From the IMG/VR virus record IMGVR_UViG_3300046368_000625, positions 1 through 37,841 of that record: a stretch of 37,841 nucleotides of DNA, one strand, 5' to 3'. The notes beneath the pieces were generated by a model that worked only from the letters and a program-made list of their open reading frames with translations, did no database searches and was not told the origin of the DNA. The translations under genes were made by a program, and so were the position numbers. This document shows, one piece after another, positions 9,894 to 37,841 of this stretch (positions are counted from its first letter, which is position 1; every line of letters starts with the position of its first letter). Source of the stretch: a virus.

Positions 9894-11603
9894 TCATAAA
9901 ATAGTTTTTTTAACAATAAAGTTTCCAAGGACTAAGATATCCATCTCACAATTTAAAAATGTTTTGATTGCAGTATTTGGGTCATTAACCATTGTTTGGT
10001 CTTTTAAATTAAATGAAGTATTTAAAACAAGTGGGAACTTATTATCAATTTGTAATTGTTTTAGTAACTTAGTAATTCTTGGATGTCTTTTTTCAGTTAC
10101 AGTTTGTATTCTTGCTGAACCATCTATATGAGTTATAGCAGGTAATCTATCTTTATACTTATCCTTTACTTTAACTACTTGATTCATATAAGGTACATCA
10201 TCTTTATAATCAAAGAATGTAGTTTGATATTCTTTCAATACCATTGGTGCAAAGGGTCTGAATCCTTCTCTCTTTTTTATAATACGATTAACTCTTGCTT
10301 TCATTTGAGGGTCTCTTGGATTAGCAAGTATAGAACGATTACCTAATGCTCGTGCACCAAACTCTAATCTTCCTTCAAACCAACCGATAACAGAGCCAGT
10401 AGTAATTTCTTCAGATATCTTTTTTATTAAATCAAAATCAGAATATTCTTCATACCAAACATCAATGTGATTATTATCTAAAGCCTCTTTCATCTGTCGT
10501 TTTGAATATTGAGGTCCTAGATATGGATTATTGTTAGTTATCGTATTTTCATATGGAACTTTTGTATAATAATAATGTAGTGATGCACCTATTGCAGAAC
10601 CAGCATCAGATGGTGCTGGTGGGATATGTATCTTTTGAAAAGAAGTTTTATTCTTTATTTTTCCATTAGCAGTTCCATTATAAGCACAACCACCTGATAA
10701 AACAATATTTTTTGATTTAGTTAATTTATATGCTGTATCTAATAAATTAAAAAAACATTTTTCATATAAACTTTGTAATCCTGCTGCTATATCTTTATGG
10801 TGTTGTTCAAGTTTCTCTTCTGGTAATCTATTTGGTATCTTAAATAACTTAGGTAGTTTAAAATTAAACATATCGATATCTGATGAATCATATGTAAAGT
10901 AATCCATGTTAACTTCGTATGTACCATTTGAATTTGTAGTTATTATTTTATCAAACTCATCAGAATATTTACTAGCATCTCCATATGGAGCTAATCCCAT
11001 AATCTTATACTCACCTTCATTTGGTTTGAATCCTAAGTATGCGGTAAACGCTGAATATACCATTCCTAATGAATGTGGGAAATCAATACTTAATAATTTT
11101 TTTATTCTGTTTTTATTTGCGTAGTAAATAGCAGTAGTTTCCCATTCACCAACCCCATCAACAGTAACTACTACACTACTATTAAAACCAGATGTGTAAA
11201 ATCCATATGCTGCATGAGATAAGTGATGATTACCATATATAAGTTTTATATGGTTACCAAAAAAGTTAAAGATTTCATTCTCAAACTTTTTATATTGTTT
11301 TTTGTTTCGTGATGCTGCAGATTCTGTGAGAACTTTTTGTAACCATGATGTTCTATCTGTTTGTTTGATTCTATCTATCTTTTCTTTTGGGTCCTCATAG
11401 AATACAACAGTATCTATATCTTCTGGTGTAAGGGTTTTTTCTTTTAATAACCACTCTAATGAATTTATGGGAAAAGATGAATCGTGTTTTATACCAGTGA
11501 ATCTTTCTTCTTCTACTGCACTTAAAACTTTACCATTTCTAAGTAGTGAAACTGCGGAATCGTGAAAACCACAACTAATTCCTACAATATATTTATCTTT
11601 CAT
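9894..11603 (-). CDS. Carbamoyltransferase, NodU/CmcH/TobZ-like
   Basis: A 569-residue protein when started at the ATG at 11603, which overlaps the sigma factor stop by 11 nt; the family starts right at YIVGIS. An upstream in-frame ATG (11639) would add 12 unlikely residues. Family enzymes use carbamoyl phosphate and ATP to put a carbamoyl group on a hydroxyl of a sugar or antibiotic. The Kae1-like domain has GISCGFHDSA (8-17), HHLSHAA (126-132; metal-binding His) and VDGVGEWE (148-155). The C-terminal carbamoyl phosphate-binding domain has FEGRLEFGARALGNRS followed by FRPFAP. Full length, no missing motif. Related genes occur in marine T4-like cyanophages, with unknown target. Here it may carbamoylate a glycan made by nearby glycosyltransferases, or a modified base. 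Confidence 0.92.
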   Translation of the reverse strand: MKDKYIVGISCGFHDSAVSLLRNGKVLSAVEEERFTGIKHDSSFPINSLEWLLKEKTLTPEDIDTVVFYEDPKEKIDRIKQTDRTSWLQKVLTESAASRNKKQYKKFENEIFNFFGNHIKLIYGNHHLSHAAYGFYTSGFNSSVVVTVDGVGEWETTAIYYANKNRIKKLLSIDFPHSLGMVYSAFTAYLGFKPNEGEYKIMGLAPYGDASKYSDEFDKIITTNSNGTYEVNMDYFTYDSSDIDMFNFKLPKLFKIPNRLPEEKLEQHHKDIAAGLQSLYEKCFFNLLDTAYKLTKSKNIVLSGGCAYNGTANGKIKNKTSFQKIHIPPAPSDAGSAIGASLHYYYTKVPYENTITNNNPYLGPQYSKRQMKEALDNNHIDVWYEEYSDFDLIKKISEEITTGSVIGWFEGRLEFGARALGNRSILANPRDPQMKARVNRIIKKREGFRPFAPMVLKEYQTTFFDYKDDVPYMNQVVKVKDKYKDRLPAITHIDGSARIQTVTEKRHPRITKLLKQLQIDNKFPLVLNTSFNLKDQTMVNDPNTAIKTFLNCEMDILVLGNFIVKKTIL

Positions 11604-12315
11604 TCCAAAACGAATTTTCTGAATCATCAAACTCACCATGTTCTAAATATTCGTTTAACATCTTCTTTTGATGTTCTTTCATAACATTTACAACCTTTGT
11701 AATATAGTGAGTTTTACAATCGGTCATTTCTCTAATAAGTAGGTAGAGATGTTTTTTATTAAAATTTTCTATATATTCACTTCTTCTAAATAACTCCAAC
11801 ACAGCATCTGCTATTTGTATATCTCGTTTTTTAGTAAATACTTCAGTTAAATGTTTATCCCAATACTTTAACATTATATCTTTGAACTCTTTAAATTCAT
11901 TATTCTCTTGAGTTTCATAATAATCGTTTGCAGGATTCCAAGTTTGTGGCATCTCTGAAAGAAGTGCATTTTGTTTCCATCTTTTGTAGTTACCATTGTT
12001 CTTTAAAATCAAATGGTTCTTTGCAATAATAGTAAAGTAAGAAAATGCTCTACCCTTACCTTCTTGAAACATATGCATTTTTTCTACCATGGTTGAAACT
12101 ACCTCTGTTTGAATATCTTTCTTTGGTACATCAAAGTAAGTAAACTTAAATGTATTAATTACATTTTCAGCAAGTTTTTCAAATGGATATTTAATTCTTG
12201 TTTCATATATTACAGAACGTAATTCTGCATCATCACAATTATTGTACTCAACTATTGCTTCTTGTGCAGGAGTACCAAAATAAATCTTTGATTTTTTTCT
12301 TCTCTTTTTGGGCAT
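11593..12315 (-). CDS. gp55: Late-transcription sigma factor, gp55-like
   Basis: A 240-residue protein with a strongly basic start (MPKKRRKKSK). Residues about 40-115 (from YPFEKLAENVINTF through GRAFSYFTIIAKNHLI) align with the sigma region 2-like core of T4 gp55, including the F-x-x-GKGRAFSYF segment. A long acidic and helical C-terminal half follows; T4 gp55 is 185 residues, so this one is longer. It would direct host RNA polymerase to late promoters, for which TATATTTATA boxes here are candidates. It lies between the carbamoyltransferase and a membrane coiled-coil gene, separated from the latter by one base. Confidence 0.8.
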   Translation of the reverse strand: MPKKRRKKSKIYFGTPAQEAIVEYNNCDDAELRSVIYETRIKYPFEKLAENVINTFKFTYFDVPKKDIQTEVVSTMVEKMHMFQEGKGRAFSYFTIIAKNHLILKNNGNYKRWKQNALLSEMPQTWNPANDYYETQENNEFKEFKDIMLKYWDKHLTEVFTKKRDIQIADAVLELFRRSEYIENFNKKHLYLLIREMTDCKTHYITKVVNVMKEHQKKMLNEYLEHGEFDDSENSFWNER

Positions 12316-18011: not shown

Positions 18012-18815
18012 TTACATTAATGTTTTTTTATAAATACTTTTCATTCCAAATTTTAAGGAAATTTTCTTTAACTCGTCAATCACTACATTATAATCCTTTG
18101 CCCAATAATCTGAGAGGTTATATAATTTGTATGAACCTTCGGGTTTATTTACTATATCTTCACTTCCATAATCATTAACAAAACCAAAATCAATTTTGTT
18201 TTTTAGTATGAATTGATATGGTAAGAAATTCTCAAACAGTTGTGGAGTATCACATACATCCAACGTATGAGGTTCAAATTTACTAAGTATAGTTTTATAT
18301 ATTTCAGTAATTGCTTTTGGATTCTTTACCATTAGAAAAGAAGTGTTTGGTACTCTACAAAACTTAGGTTCAAGTTCTTCAAACAAATCATCTGCATATT
18401 TTCTCCATGGTGCTTGATAATGATACATCATTGATTCAAATTGGTCTAGTTTAGGATTATTGTTTAAATCCAAATCCCAATATGAACAAGTAATTGTATG
18501 TGGTGAATATATTTTTTCAAATATAATTGTTTCTAAATTTATATGAACATAAGGTTCTGTTTGTTCTAATAAGGTGTAGATTTTCGGCATTACCTCTAAA
18601 GTACCTTTGTACTTATCTATTGATTCCAATATCTCAACTTCATCAAACTTAATACCTCTTGATTCAAAAAAATATTTACCATAGGTATCAGTATATAATT
18701 TTGTTTTATAAAACCTACTTGCTGATAATACACTTAACTTAGCCATTTGTACAAACCTCTCATCTCTTGGTTTATAATGACCATCAATTTTTTTAAATGT
18801 AAATATTGCTTTCAT
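18012..18815 (-). CDS. Glycosyltransferase-like protein
   Basis: A 267-residue protein with a GT-A-like layout: MKAIFTF start, then FYKTKLYTDTYGK, PKIYTLL, and YVHINLETIIFEK, where a related family would have an HxDxD metal motif. The likely D residues are thus partly replaced (NLE), so activity is uncertain. Later it has FCRVPNTSFLMVKNP and a hydrophobic YQFILKN. Resembles Bacteroidetes proteins of the DUF6734 kind, from memory. Starts 11 nt from a class 1 -7 box, so the message would be almost leaderless. First gene of the unit leading to thyA. Confidence 0.65.
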   Translation of the reverse strand: MKAIFTFKKIDGHYKPRDERFVQMAKLSVLSASRFYKTKLYTDTYGKYFFESRGIKFDEVEILESIDKYKGTLEVMPKIYTLLEQTEPYVHINLETIIFEKIYSPHTITCSYWDLDLNNNPKLDQFESMMYHYQAPWRKYADDLFEELEPKFCRVPNTSFLMVKNPKAITEIYKTILSKFEPHTLDVCDTPQLFENFLPYQFILKNKIDFGFVNDYGSEDIVNKPEGSYKLYNLSDYWAKDYNVVIDELKKISLKFGMKSIYKKTLM

Positions 18816-18825
18816 ATTGTATAAG

Positions 18826-18857
18826 CTAATATACGAAAAAAATTCGTAATAAACAAA
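18826..18857 (-). promoter_or_regulatory. Class 1 promoter, short leader
   Basis: -33 TTTG (18854-18857), 20-nt gap with a T7 run and CG, -7 TATATTAG (18826-18833). The -7 box is only 10 nt from the ATG at 18815, so the 5' leader should be about 5 nt or less. It has no clear dyad, unlike four of the other five. Confidence 0.7.
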
Positions 18858-19334
18858 TTATATAAAACTTGTTTTTGTTTTAAGTTCTATAAGGTTGTTA
18901 TTTGATATTAAGTAATGATATGTCCCATTTGGTAAATCTGTATCTTGGGAATATTTAAATAGTTTATCTAACTCACATCCATCATCAAATCCTAATCTAA
19001 TAACAAGATTTTTTGAATCAAAATTAGGAACAGGTGTTGGCCAAGGTTCTTGATTAAAAAACTTAACAGTTTTCTTATTAGAGAATAGTACTTCTTTTAC
19101 ATCTGATGTTGGGTACTCTTCTGCGTATGGTTCATTAGAACTCCTAACAGTATAGATTATATTTTTACATTTAGAATTATTAGCAAAATCCTTTACACTC
19201 TCAGCATATGTTGGTGTTATTCCTACGTTAGTGTGAAGTGTTAGTTTTTTATCTTGTACTTTAACAACACAATAAACATAAAAATTCTCACTATAAGAAT
19301 CTAAGTATTTTTTATATTTAGTAATCCCAATCAT
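18858..19334 (-). CDS. Unknown protein of glycosyltransferase block
   Basis: A 158-residue protein, overlapping the next gene by 17 nt. Beta-rich start (YCVVKVQDKKLTLHTNVGI), then helical and polar. A KNIIYTVRSS core and CELDKLFKYSQDT near the end are all I can note. No signal peptide or membrane segment. Its position among glycosyltransferases suggests a role there, but nothing in the sequence shows it. Confidence 0.6.
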   Translation of the reverse strand: MIGITKYKKYLDSYSENFYVYCVVKVQDKKLTLHTNVGITPTYAESVKDFANNSKCKNIIYTVRSSNEPYAEEYPTSDVKEVLFSNKKTVKFFNQEPWPTPVPNFDSKNLVIRLGFDDGCELDKLFKYSQDTDLPNGTYHYLISNNNLIELKTKTSFI

Positions 19335-19983
19335 CTACTCTTTGATTTTTATAAATTGGATGTCTTTGTATTAATGAAAATGTTTCTTTTTGTTTAAATG
19401 GGTGTGGTAGTAAATCGAATATATCGATAACATCTTGTCTTAAAAATAAATCTGCTGGTAATATACCATTTTCTTTTACATCAAAAATAAGTTTTTCTGC
19501 ACCACTTGGTCTTAGTAAATAAGCATGTGCACCAAATAACCACTTTGCATCTTTATTATCTGATGCCTCTCGTTTTTCTATCCCATCACCTTCCCATACT
19601 CTTGTTCCCCAATTTGGTGAACCAAGATTTAATAAATCTTCATCGAATGATTCTATATCTTTTAAAAAATAATTATCTGAATAATATCTTAATTCTACAT
19701 CATGTTCAAAAATAAAAATAGGTGTATCTAGTTGGATACACTTTTCCCATAATCTATAATGAGAAATAAATGTTGCTATTTCAGAATCTACAAATCCCCC
19801 ACCAAACCTTGTTATATCATTAATCTTAAAATCATTATCGATAAACTCTTGCCAAACATCATATTTATCACAACCATCAAATAAGGAAACATCTATACCT
19901 AATGATTCTAAATGTTTTTTTGTTTCTGTTGCAATATCAACACTCAACTTTGATTTCGGTAAATGTATTATATATCCTTTCAT
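19318..19983 (-). CDS. Glycosyltransferase family 25-like (LPS sugar transferase)
   Basis: A 221-residue protein. The start GYIIHLPKSKLS is the GT25 first strand. GGFVDSEIATFISHYRLWEKC matches the GT25 G-x-x-x-C/A-x-x-S-H block (shown in part), followed by IFIFEHDVEL, the metal-binding E-D/H-D-V position, and AHAYLLRPSGAEKLI. This family adds sugars to LPS or collagen. The variant HD in place of ED is notable but within the family's range. It overlaps both neighbours by 4-17 nt, so it is in a coupled group. Confidence 0.82.
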   Translation of the reverse strand: MKGYIIHLPKSKLSVDIATETKKHLESLGIDVSLFDGCDKYDVWQEFIDNDFKINDITRFGGGFVDSEIATFISHYRLWEKCIQLDTPIFIFEHDVELRYYSDNYFLKDIESFDEDLLNLGSPNWGTRVWEGDGIEKREASDNKDAKWLFGAHAYLLRPSGAEKLIFDVKENGILPADLFLRQDVIDIFDLLPHPFKQKETFSLIQRHPIYKNQRVDDWDY

Positions 19984-20888
19984 CTTAATGAGTTTATTAA
20001 TTTTTGCATATAGTTGTTAACATCATCCATTACTGCAGCATTTTGTGACCAATCGTGAGAAGTTTTAAAACTATTTTTTGATTCTGAAAATCCTCCTTTT
20101 AAATGTGTAATAAATTTTCTATCATTAAAATAATAATCTCTACTTGATTTATCTGTTTTAAAATTTGGATTATCATAATATGGTCCAAGGTGTAAAAACT
20201 TTTCTCCTTCTTTAATACACTTAACTGTTGCTCCATGATTTGAATCACCCCATGCCCAATCTACATAGTAATCTTCAAAGAAATCTTTTTTTGTTAAAAA
20301 GAAATAACAATCAGCAAAACCAAGGTCTTTGGTTTCTACATATCCTCCATGTTTATAATTTATTTTTATATCTTGTACAATATCTTGTACAAACTCTTTA
20401 TTAGATACATAACCTGTCAATGAAATCTTTTTGAAATCTACTGTAATGTATTTGTATTTTTCATCTGACATTTCATCTATTAGTGCACCTATCATATCGG
20501 TATGATAAAATATATCATTATGTTGAAGTATTATATAATCTCCTTTTGATTTTCTAATACCGATGTTATAAGCCATTGATGCCCACATTGATTGATTTGA
20601 ATAATTATCAATATTAAAATCTGATAACCAACTATCTTTTTTCAAATCATCTAACTCCCAACTTTGATAACCAGAAATTATTTTTAAATTTGGTAATTCT
20701 ATTTTAGGAAACGTATTAGAAGTATCTACTAAAATAATCTCCTTGTTCGTTTTAATTTTTTTATTAATATTTTTTATACAAAGAATAGTTTGAAGTATGA
20801 TGTATGCAGAATCAGTTTGTTTCCAATTATGTAAATTAGTAATTCTATTTTTTTCAACAGTTGTAAATGGTATAATAAAACTAATCAT
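19980..20888 (-). CDS. Glycosyltransferase family 2-like
   Basis: A 302-residue protein with GT-A features: MISFIIPF start, EIILVDTS (first nucleotide-binding strand), AYNIGIRKSKGDYIILQHNDIFY (conserved donor site; HND in place of DxD, shown for description), then AWGDSNHG further on. A deep GT2 relative. Acceptor and donor unknown. Overlaps the GT25-like gene by 4 nt and the MORN-like gene by 8 nt. The HND change leaves one metal ligand at least, so an active transferase is likely. Confidence 0.75.
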   Translation of the reverse strand: MISFIIPFTTVEKNRITNLHNWKQTDSAYIILQTILCIKNINKKIKTNKEIILVDTSNTFPKIELPNLKIISGYQSWELDDLKKDSWLSDFNIDNYSNQSMWASMAYNIGIRKSKGDYIILQHNDIFYHTDMIGALIDEMSDEKYKYITVDFKKISLTGYVSNKEFVQDIVQDIKINYKHGGYVETKDLGFADCYFFLTKKDFFEDYYVDWAWGDSNHGATVKCIKEGEKFLHLGPYYDNPNFKTDKSSRDYYFNDRKFITHLKGGFSESKNSFKTSHDWSQNAAVMDDVNNYMQKLINSLR

Positions 20889-24820: not shown

Positions 24821-25138
24821 TTAACATAATATACATTCTTCATCTGGCATAATCCAAAGGAGAAAAAGTATAACAATTATTGCTAGGATTGTTATCAATA
24901 CCCGAACTGGTCTTGATTGTTTCTCTTTGTATGCTCTAAGTTTCATTCCCCATTTGTATGATACTTCACCTGCCCAATCAAACATTCTACCAACCAAATC
25001 AAATGGTGGTACTTTCATAAGTGTTATAAAAAAGATAATGAAGCCTTCTGTTCCATATCCTTCTTGAAACATCATCCATATAGATGCTACTAAGAAGTAC
25101 CAACCTATATATCTTTGTAAGTGTTGTTTAATTTTCAT
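24821..25138 (-). CDS. Small membrane protein (105 aa)
   Basis: Two to three hydrophobic segments: residues about 10-28 (YIGWYFLVASIWMMF), 32-44 (GFIIFFITLMKV) and 83-100 (VLITILAIIVILFLLWI). The loop between them is charged. The last residues have two Cys (ECILC). Overlaps the UvsE gene start by 11 nt. Unknown function. Confidence 0.7.
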   Translation of the reverse strand: MKIKQHLQRYIGWYFLVASIWMMFQEGYGTEGFIIFFITLMKVPPFDLVGRMFDWAGEVSYKWGMKLRAYKEKQSRPVRVLITILAIIVILFLLWIMPDEECILC

Positions 25139-26078
25139 AACTTGCTGTTCTTAATAATCCACTATATTCACATCTGTTTGAATTAACATATGGAAGTATA
25201 GATAATTCTTTTGCCTTAGCCTCAACCATAACATCTACATCGTTACCATACAAATCAGGTAACTCATTGATGTAATCAGAATGAGCCTGTTCTTTAATCT
25301 TTTCATTACCCTCATGTAATCTTTTAGATTCTGAGTAATGAACAATTGGTTTGATATCTGTTGGCCATGTAGAGATTGCTAACTCCAATGCCTCTTGTTC
25401 TGATAATCCACCTGTGTTGAACTTGTGGTGGTGATAATCGAATACAATAGGAATACCAATTCTCTCATGTATGTACATCAAATCTTTTACTGAGTACATA
25501 GATGCTTTATCATCATTCTCAACAGTCAATCTACCTTGTACTGATTCTGATAATCTTTCGAAGTTCTTACAGAACCTATCCATAGCAGATTGTTTATCAC
25601 CATACACACCATTACAATGAATGTTTAGTTTGTTGTATGGAGTTTTAGATAACCCCAACATATCAAATACTTTACCATGTAATTCTAAATCAGTAATAGT
25701 ATTTTCTACAACGTGCTCTCTTGGAGATACAAGTACATTGAAAGGACCAGGATGTGCTGTGATACGAATACCATTCGTAGTTGCATAATTACCACACGCC
25801 TGAAGTATGGTTTCGATTCGTTTGTAATATGGTGAGTTTTCAATACCATATTCAGAAGCCCATGGAAAGATATCAGATGATAATCTGAAACATTTGATGT
25901 TCTTCTGATTGTTCCATTCTAATATAGTGAATAAATCTCTTACGTTTTGTAGAGATAATTCACCAGCGTATTCTACACCCTTCTCTAAGAAGGTTCGTTT
26001 AATCATTGAACGATTTGTAGTAACTTTTGGTTTCTGAGAACCAAGAGTCATATTGATACAAGCATAACCTAAATTCAT
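25128..26078 (-). CDS. uvsE: UV damage endonuclease UvsE/UVDE
   Basis: A 316-residue TIM-barrel enzyme that nicks DNA 5' of UV photoproducts. Family blocks: NLGYACINMTL at the start, CFRLSSDIFPWASEYG, RITAHPGPFNVLVSP (metal-binding His), NKLNIHCNGVYGDK, ENDDKASMYS, and FDYHHHKFN (metal-binding His), then IVHYSES. All expected metal ligands seem present and length is typical. It is the first gene below a class 1 promoter. Together with UvsW and PhoH it gives the phage a repair set, useful in sunlit water. Confidence 0.96.
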   Translation of the reverse strand: MNLGYACINMTLGSQKPKVTTNRSMIKRTFLEKGVEYAGELSLQNVRDLFTILEWNNQKNIKCFRLSSDIFPWASEYGIENSPYYKRIETILQACGNYATTNGIRITAHPGPFNVLVSPREHVVENTITDLELHGKVFDMLGLSKTPYNKLNIHCNGVYGDKQSAMDRFCKNFERLSESVQGRLTVENDDKASMYSVKDLMYIHERIGIPIVFDYHHHKFNTGGLSEQEALELAISTWPTDIKPIVHYSESKRLHEGNEKIKEQAHSDYINELPDLYGNDVDVMVEAKAKELSILPYVNSNRCEYSGLLRTASYEN

Positions 26079-31084: not shown

Positions 31085-32164
31085 TTACTTTAAATCTTCT
31101 CTTTTTATTCTCTTAAATACACCATCTATATTTTCCCAATAGAATGAATTATACAAGATGTTGTCTGCATAATAATATGTTGGTAGAAATATATCATAAT
31201 CTCCATCTGAATCATAATCTGATAATAGTATATTATTATCTCCATGTATATTTCCAATAGAAGGATTATCAATTACAGAAGAGGTTACATCGACCAAAGT
31301 ACCATTATCATTTCTAAGAATACTTAAGTTTCCTACTTCGTTAGATGTCGTTTCAATGTAATCAAGTATTATTAAATCATCATCACCATCGTTATCAAAA
31401 TCAGTAACTTGATAATCATCTACATAATGTTTTAAAGTGTAAGTAGATGTCATTGTACTTTTGTTTATATTAGTACCTCCCTTAAACTTATACCAAGTTC
31501 CTCCATTTGTTGTATCGTAATGAATCAAATCATCTATACCATCAGTATCGATATCAAATATAAAAACTGGTCCTGGTCCACTATTGTGTTCTTTATATTC
31601 TAACTTATCATTCTCAACAAGGTAGTAACCATTCTCTGCTAAGAATATATCTAAATTACCATCACCATTTAAATCAAATAATTTTTGAGTGTAAAAGGTA
31701 GATTCATTTGTATTTGAATTATCAAGTATTATTTTATGAGTATCTGTTTTAATATCATATAATGCTAAAAGATTTGGTTTATACCATGAACCCCACTCAC
31801 CTTCACCCCAAAAGTTAAGTAATATTTTTGTTTTATTATTATCAATATCAAATGTTAATCCATTGATACTATCTCTTGCTCCACCTAATATTCTATCGGT
31901 AAAGTTATATTCAAAATACGAACCATCAAAACTCATCTTTACTAAATCTGCAGTACTAAGATTATTGTAGTGTACTTGTGAATAAAATTCTGATTTGAAA
32001 TCAAAAAACTTTTGAATTGGTGCACCATCTGTATCTCCTACTAATAAATCTAATTTGTTAATTGGAGTTGGTAGTTTGACATTCTTATCAAACGTTTCAT
32101 ATAGTTCTTCTTTCTCACACCCCATAAGAAAGAGTGTAAGAAGAATTACAAGAAGATTTCTCAT
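31085..32164 (-). CDS. FG-GAP/VCBS-repeat lipoprotein
   Basis: A 359-residue protein with a signal peptide ending in LMGC (Cys16 lipobox) and four visible repeats of Ca2+-binding type: LNGDGNLDIF, FDIDTDGIDDLI, FDNDGDDDLIIL and YDSDGDYDIFLP. Together they would form part of a beta-propeller, probably on the cell surface. The charged ELYETFDKN after Cys fits Bacteroidetes export. VCBS proteins usually bind surfaces or carbohydrates; here a phage-encoded surface coat is possible. Joins the small 58-residue gene upstream. Confidence 0.85.
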   Translation of the reverse strand: MRNLLVILLTLFLMGCEKEELYETFDKNVKLPTPINKLDLLVGDTDGAPIQKFFDFKSEFYSQVHYNNLSTADLVKMSFDGSYFEYNFTDRILGGARDSINGLTFDIDNNKTKILLNFWGEGEWGSWYKPNLLALYDIKTDTHKIILDNSNTNESTFYTQKLFDLNGDGNLDIFLAENGYYLVENDKLEYKEHNSGPGPVFIFDIDTDGIDDLIHYDTTNGGTWYKFKGGTNINKSTMTSTYTLKHYVDDYQVTDFDNDGDDDLIILDYIETTSNEVGNLSILRNDNGTLVDVTSSVIDNPSIGNIHGDNNILLSDYDSDGDYDIFLPTYYYADNILYNSFYWENIDGVFKRIKREDLK

Positions 32165-33153: not shown

Positions 33154-33924
33154 TTAATATTTTTTAATTAAATTGATACCTCTGTGGAAGTTTTTTGTAT
33201 CAATTGGTAGGTTATTGGATTCCCATTTTTGAAGTTTTGGTGGGAATGGACAAACAGTACAATGACTAAGTGGTATATCACTATTGATAAAATCTACAAC
33301 TTGTTGTGTATTATCCCATGTACACATATCTTTTTTTTCACTATAAGTTGTAGTACATCTATATAAATGTTTTTTTGTAATAACTCTACAAGTATCTTTT
33401 TGATAACATCTTTCCCAATTTAATTTTGTAGAATATGGTATATTATCTTCTTCTTCTCCCCATAAATGAAATCCATTCTGCCTCCAAAAGGATACATCTA
33501 CATGAGAACTTAAATCCTTGTATAAATCAGATGCTTGTATTATATCTCCTAAATCTTCTTCGAGTGGATATACTGAGATTACTAATCTATCTAATTTTTT
33601 TAAAGTATTAACTATCTTTGGAGTAAAGTTTAATCCATTAGTTACAAGAGATAAGAAATCAAATCGATTTGTACTTAGTAAATAATCTACAATTTCATCT
33701 AAGTTTGTATGAAGTGTTGGTTCACCACCTAATATTTTTAACTCTTCTAAATGTAAATCTAGTCGTGTTAGGTTTTCTATTACTTCTTTTACATCACTTA
33801 GTTCATATCTCGAATTAGTTATACGACCATCTTGAAGGTAATCTAAAACTACACATCCTTTACAATTTAAATTACAAGTATCTATTATGTGTAAATCAAA
33901 ACTTCCAGGTAATACATTAGGCAT
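33154..33924 (-). CDS. Radical SAM enzyme with C-terminal Cys clusters
   Basis: A 256-residue enzyme. CNLNCKGC (Cys17, 21, 24) binds the 4Fe-4S cluster and GGEPTLH (66-72) the SAM. The C-terminal part has at least six more Cys (RCYQKDTC, RCTTTY, MCTWD, HCTVCPF), which points to an auxiliary cluster of SPASM type used on peptides or sugars. Overlaps PhoH by 8 nt at its start. Short for a SPASM protein. Its substrate is unknown; it could act in the modification cluster above it. metK in this phage would supply SAM. Confidence 0.88.
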   Translation of the reverse strand: MPNVLPGSFDLHIIDTCNLNCKGCVVLDYLQDGRITNSRYELSDVKEVIENLTRLDLHLEELKILGGEPTLHTNLDEIVDYLLSTNRFDFLSLVTNGLNFTPKIVNTLKKLDRLVISVYPLEEDLGDIIQASDLYKDLSSHVDVSFWRQNGFHLWGEEEDNIPYSTKLNWERCYQKDTCRVITKKHLYRCTTTYSEKKDMCTWDNTQQVVDFINSDIPLSHCTVCPFPPKLQKWESNNLPIDTKNFHRGINLIKKY

Positions 33925-34582
33925 AATTCTGTAATAATCTTAATATCTCATCCAATGATTCGTGTCTGTGGTTATCTAATAAACTAACCGAATAAACATA
34001 TTTGGATTCTTTAACTTTTGCTACATCATGTATAGCAGAATCATTAGGAAACTTTAAATCAATCTGTTGTGGGTCTCCACAAAGTATCATAGTTGATTTT
34101 TTTCCTAATCTACCCAATACCATTCCAAGTTGTTGTTTGGTTAAGTTTTGAAACTCATCTACAATCACACACGCATTATCAAACGTTCTACCTCTAAAGT
34201 GAGATAAAGATACCAACTCAATCTTTTCATCTGCTTCCATCTTTTGTAGAATAGCAGGTTTGTTGTAAACCTTTCTCATATTAGAACGAATTGGAACTAA
34301 CCAAGGCTCCATCTTTTCATCAAGTGAACCTGGTAGATATCCATTATCTTCATTTGATACTGTTGGTCTTGTTATAATGATTTGATTTATCTTACGAGTA
34401 AAAAACATATCCAATGCAATCTGTACCGCAAGAAGTGTTTTACCACTACCTGCTTTACCTAATACAAAATTATATGGATGATATAAGATATTTGTTTTAG
34501 CCATTTTTTGTTCTTCTGATAATGTAATTGAAAATCTAACCTTTCCCTTTGGGGCTTGTTTGTTAATGTTCTCTGTTGGCAT
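33917..34582 (-). CDS. phoH: PhoH-like ATPase
   Basis: A 221-residue P-loop ATPase. GKAGSGKT (Walker A, 42-49), VDEFQN (Walker B, 141-146), ILCGDPQQID and RPTVSNEDNGYLPG are the family blocks. I chose the ATG at 34582 because AAAAAGGAG sits 4 nt upstream (34586-34594); a TTG at 34618 would give 12 extra residues overlapping the next gene. PhoH is common in marine phages and may link to RNA or phosphate stress; function not settled. Confidence 0.95.
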   Translation of the reverse strand: MPTENINKQAPKGKVRFSITLSEEQKMAKTNILYHPYNFVLGKAGSGKTLLAVQIALDMFFTRKINQIIITRPTVSNEDNGYLPGSLDEKMEPWLVPIRSNMRKVYNKPAILQKMEADEKIELVSLSHFRGRTFDNACVIVDEFQNLTKQQLGMVLGRLGKKSTMILCGDPQQIDLKFPNDSAIHDVAKVKESKYVYSVSLLDNHRHESLDEILRLLQNYA

Positions 34583-34593
34583 TGTACTCCTTT

Positions 34594-35256
34594 TTAAATT
34601 ATTTGTTCTTTTCTCCAAGTCCTATTAGGAAACTCAGAGTAATCCTTAACCTTAATTTTATACTTACTTGCAATTACAGTAATTACTAAACCCTCTCCAT
34701 ATCCAATACCAACTCTACTATATCGAGTAACTTCTCGTCTATGTGGTTTTGTATTAAACATTTCTTCATGTGGTTTTTGTAATGTGTTAAAATCTTTTTT
34801 TATAACTGATAAATCGTTTCTGTATGGAAATGATATAATCGCTTCTGGTATATACCACTCTTCCAATACTTCATGATTTATTTTTTTAAATTGTTCTTTT
34901 ATTTTCGGATGTTGTTCTGTACTAATATAGTTACTTACAGGTTCTTTAAATATATTAAAAATTGAGTAAGTATATAAACTATCATCATCTAATTTATTAT
35001 TTGTATCATATGCTTCTAACCAATCAGAATCTATATATGTTATTCTTTGTTTATGTTTTTCTGAAAGATTTAGTATGTGATTTATTTTTTCATAGTAACT
35101 AAACTCATCTCTATCATATTGATAACATATCCCATTATCAAATAAAGAAGGGTTATCTGTTAAGATGTGAAGTTCGTTGTTTTTAGAAAACTTATTTACA
35201 GAGTTTACATATTTTGAGTTCCACTCTTCACCAATACATTTAGTTGCATAAATCAT
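34594..35256 (-). CDS. Glycosyltransferase-like protein, paralogue A
   Basis: A 220-residue protein sharing many positions with the 243-residue gene at 36382-37113: MIYxT start, L-T-D-x-P-x-x-F, RDxFSYYEK, I-D-S-D/V-D-I-D as a DxD-type site, SLYT, and GxGYGEG near the end. Both look like small GT-A transferases. The DSD (IDSDWLE) is the probable metal ligand. Starts in ATGA overlap with the dioxygenase. It lies in the modification cluster; donor and acceptor unknown. Confidence 0.7.
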   Translation of the reverse strand: MIYATKCIGEEWNSKYVNSVNKFSKNNELHILTDNPSLFDNGICYQYDRDEFSYYEKINHILNLSEKHKQRITYIDSDWLEAYDTNNKLDDDSLYTYSIFNIFKEPVSNYISTEQHPKIKEQFKKINHEVLEEWYIPEAIISFPYRNDLSVIKKDFNTLQKPHEEMFNTKPHRREVTRYSRVGIGYGEGLVITVIASKYKIKVKDYSEFPNRTWRKEQII

Positions 35257-35807
35257 AGTAACCCCATTTTTTGTTTTGTTTCTTTAGATGAAAACCATAT
35301 TGACATCATAACTCGTTTTCCTGCGGTAATTTCACTTACACTATGTCTTTGATTTGCTCCATTAAAAAATACAACATCACCTCTTTTATAAAAATCTTGT
35401 AATACTTCTTCTAAGTGAACATCTCCTCCTTGAAATGAATCTCCAATCATTAAGTTATAAGTTATATTAGAATCAGGGTCAAAGTGAGGTAGTGCAAACC
35501 CACCAACTTCATAAGATACTTCTGATACTACTATAAGTTCTTTATTAGGTTCATTGAATATTTCTCTAATATAATCATTGAGTTTTTCATTACTCAAAGA
35601 ATAGTACTTAATTGTAGTGTGAGCTTTACCGATGTGAGGTAAGAGATGAGAATCTTTATTGTATGGTTTTAATCTTGGAATTAATCTATAAACTTCTTTT
35701 AATTCTTTTTCAAAATCAGAATCATCGTTTAGTAGAATCGGTGTTTGTTTTAATAAAGATTCTAATATTTTTAATTGCTCTTCAGATATTTTAAATGAAT
35801 TATTCAT
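35253..35807 (-). CDS. 2-oxoglutarate/Fe(II) dioxygenase, prolyl-hydroxylase-like
   Basis: A 184-residue protein of the P4Hc-like family common in marine phages. The iron triad is His108 and Asp110 in LPHFDPDS and His155 in RHSVSE, with Arg165 or Lys164 for 2-oxoglutarate (TAGKRVMMSIWFS). The usual FxGG and GD-x-V-x-F pattern precedes it. Overlaps both neighbours (4-8 nt). It hydroxylates a protein, peptide or sugar; target unknown. Confidence 0.88.
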   Translation of the reverse strand: MNNSFKISEEQLKILESLLKQTPILLNDDSDFEKELKEVYRLIPRLKPYNKDSHLLPHIGKAHTTIKYYSLSNEKLNDYIREIFNEPNKELIVVSEVSYEVGGFALPHFDPDSNITYNLMIGDSFQGGDVHLEEVLQDFYKRGDVVFFNGANQRHSVSEITAGKRVMMSIWFSSKETKQKMGLL

Positions 35808-36354
35808 CTATAAATTTATGTTCGTACATACCTGAACCTTTACATAGTTTAATTGACCAATGATTCCAATTATCACAATACAGATATGCAACCTCCTTTC
35901 TGTTGTATCTAAGTCCCAACTCAATTGCTTGTCTAAAAGCGATTTGAGATGCGTTTACAACTTTCTTATCTTTTCTTGATACTGTACCAGTACCCATATA
36001 TTGTTCATGTGGTTTTAGTTTTTGACCTACTGATTTAAAATCTTTAGTAATGTAATCATTGTTTAACCAATACCATCCACATGCTAAATCTTCATACATA
36101 AGAATCCAACATTGTGAACCAAACTCTACCATTTCTAACGCATCTTCATATGTTGGTGCTTCAGGCCAATCAATATCATCATTGAGTCTTTCAATGACTC
36201 TTCGTACTTTCGCTTCTTTTGCCTTAACTTCTATTGGAGTTGTAAGTACATCAAATGTAAATCGACCATCCCATTCATAACCTCGATTTTCGTAATGGTC
36301 AACACTTACCTTTAGTTGAGTGATATCTTTAGTATCAATTTTTGCTGTATTCAT
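35800..36354 (-). CDS. GNAT acetyltransferase-like protein
   Basis: A 184-residue protein. Residues about 90-180 are GNAT-like: LACGWYWLNN (strand 4), QIAFRQAIELGLR (helix 3), VAYLYCDNWNHWSIKL (strand 5 and N-containing loop). The acetyl-CoA P-loop (Q/R-x-x-G-x-G/A) is only weakly present (QYMGTGTV), so the call is moderate. N-terminus is helical and Asp/Glu-rich. A late-like box lies 15 nt upstream. Confidence 0.55.
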   Translation of the reverse strand: MNTAKIDTKDITQLKVSVDHYENRGYEWDGRFTFDVLTTPIEVKAKEAKVRRVIERLNDDIDWPEAPTYEDALEMVEFGSQCWILMYEDLACGWYWLNNDYITKDFKSVGQKLKPHEQYMGTGTVSRKDKKVVNASQIAFRQAIELGLRYNRKEVAYLYCDNWNHWSIKLCKGSGMYEHKFIDE

Positions 36355-36368
36355 AAAGTAACATTTAT

Positions 36369-36377
36369 TATAAATAT
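36369..36377 (-). promoter_or_regulatory. Candidate late promoter box
   Basis: Minus-strand ATATTTATA, 14 nt before the ATG at 36354 and below the 36382 stop. No -33 TTG at 20 nt. Confidence 0.45.
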
Positions 36378-36381
36378 GTTG

Positions 36382-37113
36382 TTATATAAGATTGTTAGTT
36401 AATCTTATCTGTTTAATTTTTAAATTAAATAATGAATTACAATAAGATAGAACCCCACCTTCACCATATCCACATCCATTATTAGAGTGTTTGTTTGCTG
36501 GATGCCAGTTTGGATTATCTATCGGTCTATAATCTTTGTAAGATTCATCATAATAAATTTCTGAAGATTCCCATATAAATCCTTTTGGATATATCGATTC
36601 CCATTTATCTTGAAGTTCTAAAATAAATGATGATATTTTTTTATGATTTTGTTTATATGGCATCGATAATATTCTTTCATGTGGGTAAATGATTTCATCT
36701 ACTATATCCTTTCTTACAACTTCTTTAAAAGTTTTATAAAAGATTCCGATACTTGGGTCTTTTATTACTTTTTCTATATTATCGTTTGGAGTTGTGTAAA
36801 CTTTAAATGTATATAATGATTCATTATCAAAATCAACTTGTTTGTTTACTATCCATTTAAATTCTTCAAGATGAAGTGCATCAATATCTACTAAAGTTAC
36901 TCGTTCTTTATATTTGGTTACTAAGTTTATTAGTAGTATTATTTTTTCATAATAACTAAATACATCTCTGTTGTATTCTATAATTTTACATGAAGGAAAG
37001 TATTGTGGACAATCAGTTAGTACATAAACAGTTTCAGTTTCTGCTAATTCATTTACACTTGTTTCATATCGTTTACACAAGTCATCACCTACACTTACTG
37101 TACAATAAATCAT
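36382..37113 (-). CDS. Glycosyltransferase-like protein, paralogue B
   Basis: A 243-residue protein from the ATG at 37113, which overlaps the methyltransferase stop in ATGA; an outer TTG (37140) adds 9 unlikely residues. The VDIDALH segment is the DxD candidate, and RDVFSYYEK, NESLYTFKV and GCGYGEGGV match paralogue A. It is 23 residues longer, mainly in the loop before GYGEG. The pair probably arose by duplication and may add different sugars. Confidence 0.7.
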   Translation of the reverse strand: MIYCTVSVGDDLCKRYETSVNELAETETVYVLTDCPQYFPSCKIIEYNRDVFSYYEKIILLINLVTKYKERVTLVDIDALHLEEFKWIVNKQVDFDNESLYTFKVYTTPNDNIEKVIKDPSIGIFYKTFKEVVRKDIVDEIIYPHERILSMPYKQNHKKISSFILELQDKWESIYPKGFIWESSEIYYDESYKDYRPIDNPNWHPANKHSNNGCGYGEGGVLSYCNSLFNLKIKQIRLTNNLI

Positions 37114-37691
37114 ATGATTTCTTTGTTTAAATATATCCAACTACTATCTTCAAATTTTTTAGTGGGATTACCTAATGTTTCATCTATTGCTTTACAAACT
37201 CCTGGCCAGTGATGGGTATAATCATGTCCACCAATAATACCACCTACTTTTAATTTGGGTAAATACAATTCTATATCTTTCTTTACTGATTCATAAGTGT
37301 GTTCAGCATCTATGTAAATAAAATCTATACTCTTATTAAGGAATTTGTTAACTACATTGTAACTATAATCTTCATGGTGTATTATGTTATCAAAGTATCT
37401 TGTATTTAATTTATACTCTCGTTTAACATCATCCCAAGTATGACCATGTAGTTCATTGAACTTCTCAGTACCAGTATGTGGGTCTATTGAATGTATTGTT
37501 TTGAATAATCCCATAGATGCAAACATCATTGTAGATTCTCCCATATAACTCCCAATCTCAATCATAGTTTTTGATGTATTTGGAGGAAGGGTTTCTTTTA
37601 GTTCTATTAACAAATCAATCATACCTTTATATAAAAAGTTATAATGAAAATTGTTCCATTCATCTGGTCCATTAAATCTCTGTGTTATCAT
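37110..37691 (-). CDS. SAM-dependent methyltransferase-like (Methyltransf_24)
   Basis: A 193-residue protein with MIEIGSYMGES (motif I), IHSIDPH (motif II), DFIYIDAEHTYESV (motif IV) and GGIIGGHDYTH. Same subfamily as the methyltransferase at 14685-15368, typical of O-methylation on sugars or small molecules. Start ATG overlaps the dioxygenase stop (ATGA). Length is typical. Confidence 0.85.
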   Translation of the reverse strand: MITQRFNGPDEWNNFHYNFLYKGMIDLLIELKETLPPNTSKTMIEIGSYMGESTMMFASMGLFKTIHSIDPHTGTEKFNELHGHTWDDVKREYKLNTRYFDNIIHHEDYSYNVVNKFLNKSIDFIYIDAEHTYESVKKDIELYLPKLKVGGIIGGHDYTHHWPGVCKAIDETLGNPTKKFEDSSWIYLNKEII

Positions 37692-37841
37692 AGTACAGAA
37701 AAGTTTAATGTGACTGGGTCGTGAAATTTATTAGTATAAAACTTTTGATGATTTATTCTTGATGCACTATAAACACACGCGTATAAACATCGTGGGATAT
37801 CTGATTTGTTTGGTTCTGATTGATGAGGAGTATCTCCATGT
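37688..37841 (-). CDS. Phytanoyl-CoA dioxygenase-like, C-terminal fragment (starts outside window)
   Basis: The last 50 residues of a protein whose start is beyond the right edge. HGDTPHQSEPNKSDIPR fits the C-terminal iron His and 2-oxoglutarate Arg block of phytanoyl-CoA dioxygenases (H-G-x-x-x-x-x-S-x-P-N-x-S-x-x-P-R). It ends SVL and its TGA overlaps the next ATG. A second 2OG enzyme in the same cluster. Confidence 0.6.
   Translation of the reverse strand, partial: HGDTPHQSEPNKSDIPRCLYACVYSASRINHQKFYTNKFHDPVTLNFSVL

Follow-up and report, generated by a model that had tools for sequence, protein, structure and literature searches.

The right-hand end (positions 33154-37841) of a 37,841-nucleotide stretch of viral DNA, comprising positions 1 to 37,841 of IMG/VR record IMGVR_UViG_3300046368_000625 and hereafter called the window, is an accessory modification island of a marine T4-like phage, in which variable enzymes occupy a fixed site. 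Many unrelated enzymes at sites of this widespread type share a short C-terminal tail with the consensus K-[KSTN]-[LI]-[LI]-COOH (roughly Lys-Ser-Leu-Ile), and the genes for tailed proteins are concentrated around a single gene, here called c38, that encodes an intein-like, self-cleaving-type Hint-domain protein. Our preferred interpretation, to which we assign a probability of roughly 40%, is that these are interchangeable tailoring enzymes that are recruited through the tail, serving as a docking signal, to a common acceptor, either c38 or its assembly. We hold somewhat more tentatively the narrower proposal that c38 is the scaffold or acceptor of a plug-in system, in which any enzyme that gains the four-residue tail would be recruited to bring exchangeable chemistry to a virion or cell-surface structure. 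Neither the tail nor the link to the Hint-domain protein was part of the first-pass annotation of this DNA, which had described a tightly coupled modification cluster and suggested a single product for it.

Five of the eight proteins encoded in the segment end in a hydrophobic pair that is usually preceded by a polar stretch, namely a PhyH-like dioxygenase, a methyltransferase, two glycosyltransferase (GT)-like proteins termed GT A and GT B, and a 2-oxoglutarate (2OG)-Fe(II) oxygenase. Our first definitions of the tail were looser or different, and a single fixed definition was used for the control and out-of-sample tests. This strict tail has L or I as the last residue and L, I, V, M, or F as the penultimate one, and the three residues before these are not hydrophobic, aromatic, or Cys. 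It is found in the methyltransferase, GT A, and GT B, and only a loose version is present in the 2OG oxygenase (KMGLL) and in the partial PhyH protein (FSVL). Unrelated cargo families end alike, for example in KEII, EQII, MGLL, NNLI, KTLI, KSLI, or KTIL, and the hydrophobic pair is present in 13 of 13 sulfotransferases, 5 of 5 members of the GT family, and 12 of 12 carbamoyltransferases. Where the representative of a tailed family has a match in Pfam, it is mostly a tailoring enzyme (2OG, PhyH, radical SAM, methyltransferase, sulfotransferase, GDSL, carbamoyltransferase, halogenase, and SET proteins). PhoH and c38 lack the tail.

In the phage family to which the window belongs, the strict tail occurs in 35 of 287 protein families, a family being counted when at least half of its members carry it, versus 3.5 expected from the interiors of the same proteins (p=6e-24). 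Shuffling of the last ten residues yields 4.8 on average and 12 at most, versus 32 observed with the same one-per-family count, and the tally for five control phage genomes is 4/363 versus 4.4 expected. Together, the shuffling and the control genomes rule out general C-terminal composition as the cause. The tail was spotted post hoc, and the p-values for this first family are indicative; the real test is provided by c38 loci, some of which are relatives of the first set.

For this test, 80 c38 loci were fetched by c38 sequence alone, and the removal of nine contigs that had already been used left 71. Among these new loci, the strict tail is present in 28 of 171 protein families versus 2.0 expected (p=2e-23), with the form K(58%)-[K/S/T/N]-[L/I]-[I/L]-COOH, and a 2OG oxygenase lies no more than five genes from c38 in 58 of the 71. 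The distribution around c38 is also strongly positional. At 53 distinct c38 loci, the strict tail is carried by 0-6% of genes at upstream positions -9 to -5, by 8-15% at -4 to -2, and by 30% at -1, rising to 60% at +1 and 33-53% at +2 to +8. Within the window-phage family, 29 of 111 genes within 6 kb of c38 are tailed versus 45 of 540 elsewhere (p=1e-6), and the corresponding values for other lineages are 12 of 64 and 22 of 438 (p=4e-4). The small protein c21 was considered as the tail determinant and rejected, given that some records that have no c38 nonetheless contain c21 homologues, and those that were read (G020, G039, and G044) lack the tail.

The c38 protein is encoded at L004 6375-8336, L013 6806-9100, and L160 6710-8119 and was matched in 111 viral contigs. 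Its N-terminal domain includes the invariant pattern MKGT..S.D...E.NTDT, and most representatives carry one or two C-terminal Hint domains with intein N- and C-terminal motifs; those of L009, L160, and L168 have no Hint domain. No named relative of the N-terminal domain was found among Pfam or PDB profiles, and these profiles likewise gave no support to the idea, prompted by the ELNTDT motif, that c38 is an ATP-grasp ligase.

The site itself is highly plastic. No close relative of the window was found in the named-phage collection, where the best PhoH match (Flavobacterium phage immuto) is only 47% identical, and uncultured IMG/VR contigs encode PhoH proteins that are 86-92% identical. One of these contigs (L013; G010) is 275970 bases long and its PhoH is 92% identical, and therefore the window-phage family may have very large genomes. 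Among the relatives, c21, c38, phoH, and a nucleotidase gene form conserved flanks, and the stretch between c21, c38, and phoH is hypervariable. Gene orders there include c38-GT-2OG-GNAT-phoH (L012) and c38-GT-2OG-2OG-sulfotransferase-GNAT-phoH (L021), and other lineages have GNAT-GT-2OG (L155 and L158), GNAT-2OG-GT (L156), or GNAT-GT-c38 (L160). This persistent linkage of GT, GNAT, and 2OG genes across several lineages, despite changes in their order, argues for a common function. Of about 78 methyltransferase loci, 13 have a PhyH gene next to the methyltransferase gene, with either of the two coming first, and such pairs are also found within the head-gene regions of other phages. Two further proteins were noted in relatives, specifically a 392-residue protein beside phoH (L022 8340-9518) with weak matches to class I tRNA synthetases and LHIGH and KMSSSKGN motifs, and, among the cargo, a small SET-domain-looking protein (L005 8517-8915) located between a 2OG oxygenase gene and phoH.

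These comparisons bear directly on the earlier expectation of one conserved operon. The same gene order was sought in relatives, and the full window set is absent from every one of them; modules recur separately and are reshuffled, phoH keeps its position while its neighbors change, and the sole relative of the radical SAM gene among the loci lies at another site (L006). The segment is therefore better described as a hotspot that holds two or three modules than as an operon, with phoH as a fixed flank gene rather than a cluster member. The idea of a single system survives in a reduced form, because the common tail on most window members supports it and the GT, GNAT, and 2OG genes are linked, whereas a single unit made up of all seven genes is not supported.

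The enzyme classes proposed for the seven genes from the sequence alone were borne out by Pfam for the radical SAM, PhoH, 2OG, and methyltransferase proteins, and by fold models for the GT and GNAT proteins, which have no Pfam match. GT A (36382..37113) and GT B (34594..35256) are indeed paralogues (29% identity over 237 aligned columns, E=3e-26), with tails NNLI at 36385-36396 and EQII at 34597-34608, respectively, and as first described they flank a hydroxylase and a GNAT-like gene in the order GT A, GNAT, 2OG, GT B. An AlphaFold2 model of GT B built from six homologues (pLDDT 84, with the last five residues predicted to be disordered) supports a GT-A fold, the best Foldseek match to GT-A enzymes of family GT6 having E=5.5e-5 and a TM score of about 0.5. 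This likeness is a fold match, and placement of the protein in GT6 by sequence is unsupported. The model also matches viral glycosyltransferases. A DxD motif is present in the six aligned homologues and is replaced by D-A-N in L156 and L160. The acyltransferase-like protein encoded at 35800..36354 lacks the tail and has a GNAT fold in its model (AlphaFold2 pLDDT 83; best Foldseek match to GNAT structures E=3.2e-7); its homologue in L005 matches Acetyltransf_1.

The 2OG-Fe(II) oxygenase (35253..35807; Pfam 2OG-FeII_Oxy_3, E=4e-6; tail MGLL at 35256-35267) has the invariant HxD...H...R pattern of its profile at H108, D110, H155, and R165, and the solved structures nearest to it are PKHD-type, procollagen lysyl, and prolyl hydroxylases. 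Single-protein searches with GT B, the 2OG oxygenase, and the GNAT protein returned no matches, the GNAT family alignment was too divergent to serve as a search query, and no bacterial relatives of the GT and the methyltransferase were found in bacterial genome contigs with the patterns used.

In the interpretation that we favor, the segment represents one version of a modular tailoring island of T4-like phages, in which small enzymes rotate in and out beside c38 and, in the window-phage family, upstream of phoH. The rotating set, most of which is tailed, consists above all of 2OG oxygenases, along with GTs, methyltransferases, sulfotransferases, SGNH hydrolases, radical SAM enzymes, and a halogenase. 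The tail would dock each enzyme onto a common partner, for which c38 is the best candidate, as it is the one gene surrounded by tailed enzymes, a matter of linkage and not of binding. Thus docked, the exchangeable enzymes would act on one acceptor. Because the 2OG oxygenase resembles peptidyl hydroxylases and the GT proteins have a GT-A fold, a reasonable pathway would begin with the hydroxylation of a protein residue and continue with its glycosylation. Specifically, the prolyl- or lysyl-hydroxylase-like 2OG enzyme might hydroxylate the acceptor, and the two GT-A-fold enzymes might then glycosylate it, with optional acylation by the GNAT protein and methylation by the methyltransferase. The phage would probably benefit by being able to vary a virion or surface structure.

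The predicted disorder of the GT B tail, the absence of the tail from homologous enzymes elsewhere, and the peak immediately downstream of c38 all favor docking. Methyltransferases of other lineages mostly stop 4-8 residues past the last conserved motif, and tailed ones run 8-17 residues past it, ending in the tail. The tail is also absent from the PhyH and methyltransferase homologues of L034 and L026 and from clusters of similar content in S-SSM7 and HTVC008M. Several findings weigh against this interpretation. The c38 gene is outside the window, and the relatives lead us to expect it to the right. The GNAT protein, which is the most constant neighbor of c38 in the window-phage family, has no tail. 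Untailed families of 2OG, radical SAM, and GT enzymes also occur at these sites, which indicates in addition that the tail is not a property of an enzyme class. The carbamoyltransferase is tailed even though its gene is far from the island site. Of the 71 new loci, only 3 have a GT gene and only 7 a GNAT gene in the vicinity of c38, and thus the window trio is one island variant. Finally, in the contig of L156 (G022), the c38 gene and the GNAT-2OG-GT trio are separated by about 30 kb.

Perhaps the enzymes instead belong to one sugar pathway that edits host or phage-directed glycans, such as lipopolysaccharide (LPS), capsule, or exopolysaccharide, and the tail serves separately in, for example, membrane or complex association. 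We consider this rather unlikely. GTs, sulfotransferases, methyltransferases, and a carbamoyltransferase are typical of glycan decoration, cyanophage LPS gene clusters are located near phoH (PMC3037559), and a UDP-glucose dehydrogenase is encoded in the comparable HTVC008M cluster. However, sugar-nucleotide biosynthesis genes are absent from the eight segment genes, the 2OG family is nearest to peptidyl hydroxylases, and a glycan pathway leaves the association between the tail and c38 unexplained. Less likely again is a role of the tail in marking the enzymes for degradation by a host protease (ClpXP, Lon, or tail-specific protease), in which case the enzymes would be short-lived and need not share a product. 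Bacterial proteases do recognize short hydrophobic C-termini (ssrA-type, MuA-type, and Tsp/Prc-type ends), and a tail that is found on many unrelated enzymes and is predicted to be disordered would suit this role. A degradation signal would not be expected, however, to be concentrated directly downstream of one partner gene or to be absent from similar enzymes of other marine T4-like phages.

Delivery is another conceivable purpose, whereby the tail would load enzymes into the virion for immediate action on the host at infection. Tailed genes are located among late structural genes, and internal proteins of phage T4 offer a precedent in being packaged via short targeting sequences, but those signals are N-terminal and cleaved whereas the tail is C-terminal, and we regard this role as improbable. 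We give very little credence to the remaining possibility, which is that the genes are unrelated passengers at a recombination hotspot whose products end alike because of common junction DNA or ATGA start-stop overlaps. The site is hypervariable, the final isoleucine codon alone is biased toward ATA, and TGA stops are more frequent, as such overlaps would yield. Against this, leucine codons and penultimate isoleucine codons match background use in the larger set, the hydrophobic pair is kept with differing codons, lysine is enriched at position -4 (58%), and the linkage of GNAT, 2OG, and GT genes survives rearrangement. Moreover, TATTTATA-type downstream DNA follows only 15% of tailed genes and no downstream motif is common to most of them, which together with the penultimate codons led us to reject a DNA-level origin. 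Codon use instead points to selection at the protein level for the same short end on unrelated proteins.

The docking interpretation can also be viewed alongside known systems. Islands of T4-like cyanophages and pelagiphages (S-SSM7, P-SSM2, and HTVC008M; PMC3037559) similarly have 2OG oxygenase, carbamoyltransferase, GT, methyltransferase, and halogenase genes near tail genes or phoH, but they lack both the C-terminal tail and c38. The GT-GNAT-2OG trio was not found in the phage collection by the GT search. In work on cyanophages, roles in nitrogen signaling or DNA repair, or as filler DNA, have been suggested (PMC3037559). The pairing of a 2OG enzyme of the prolyl 4-hydroxylase (P4H)/lysyl hydroxylase group with GT-A-fold GTs is reminiscent of procollagen lysyl hydroxylase/glycosyltransferase enzymes (animal LH3 and Mimivirus L230), although the window enzymes are separate proteins, their GT fold is closest to GT6, and a collagen-like substrate was not identified. 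Like Hint and bacterial intein-like (BIL) proteins, most c38 proteins carry intein motifs within a C-terminal Hint domain, but they differ in having an N-terminal domain of unknown fold, and the Hint domain is missing from some of them. Encapsulin cargo-loading peptides, the peroxisomal PTS1 signal, and PDZ ligands are C-terminal targeting peptides that, like the tail, consist of a few residues at a disordered C-terminus common to unrelated proteins. The tail differs from these in sequence and in being phage-encoded, and no shell, peroxisome, or PDZ protein was identified. No published account of such a tail was found in the open-access literature. Marine T4-like phages are rich in 2OG oxygenases and sugar-type enzymes, whose role becomes testable through a common tail tied to one partner gene. 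The tail also provides a sequence handle for spotting members of unknown fold, and it could become a useful docking tag if confirmed.

All eight genes, called as mechanical open reading frames, are on the minus strand and are transcribed in the order PhyH, methyltransferase, GT A, GNAT, 2OG, GT B, PhoH, and radical SAM. Of the two dioxygenases originally proposed, the 2OG oxygenase is complete, and the other is only a 50-residue C-terminal stump of a PhyH-like protein (37688..37841; end FSVL at 37691-37702) that is cut by the right edge of the window, where the IMG/VR record stops. This stump is homologous to full-length proteins encoded at L034:5408-6025 and L026:5397-6017. The Methyltransf_24 enzyme (37110..37691; Pfam E=6e-20; tail KEII at 37113-37124) is 52-56% identical to proteins of L034, L026, and L006. 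In two of these contigs, which represent a different phage, an inserted pair of PhyH and methyltransferase genes (L034 5408-6599 and L026 5397-6603) separates prohead protease-like genes from scaffold/capsid-like ones. The open reading frame of PhoH (33917..34582; Pfam E=1e-48) spans 33917-34618, with an ATG at 34582 as the probable true start. The radical SAM protein (33154..33924; Pfam Radical_SAM, E=1e-11) is untailed and is encoded in a second variable segment downstream of phoH, and it is doubtful that its gene is an island member. It is not a viperin by score (48.6 bits versus a curated cut-off of 180), and PADLOC gave no known anti-phage defense system, returning nothing beyond generic matches of the 2OG, radical SAM, and helicase types.

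The overlapping frames noted in the first-pass annotation are real at five junctions, with 4-base overlaps at 37688-37691, 37110-37113 (using the GT A ATG at 37113), and 35253-35256, and 8-base overlaps at 35800-35807 and 33917-33924. However, gaps of 27 bases between GT A and GNAT and of 11 bases between GT B and PhoH (using the PhoH ATG) mean that the frames do not all overlap.

Several features elsewhere in the window are also worth recording. The tailed carbamoyltransferase is of the NodU/CmcH type (9894-11639), and a K-K-K-I-L-type end is present in all 12 of the 12 members that its protein family has in the window-phage family. A second sugar-type group at 18012-20888 comprises a DUF6734 protein ending in KKTLM, a small protein ending in KTSFI, a GT25 protein, and a GT2 protein. 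The variable segment that follows the radical SAM gene encodes a lipoprotein-like protein with FG-GAP repeats (31085-32164), and a UV-endonuclease UvdE that is conserved in relatives is encoded at 25128-26078 (Pfam E=3.5e-66).

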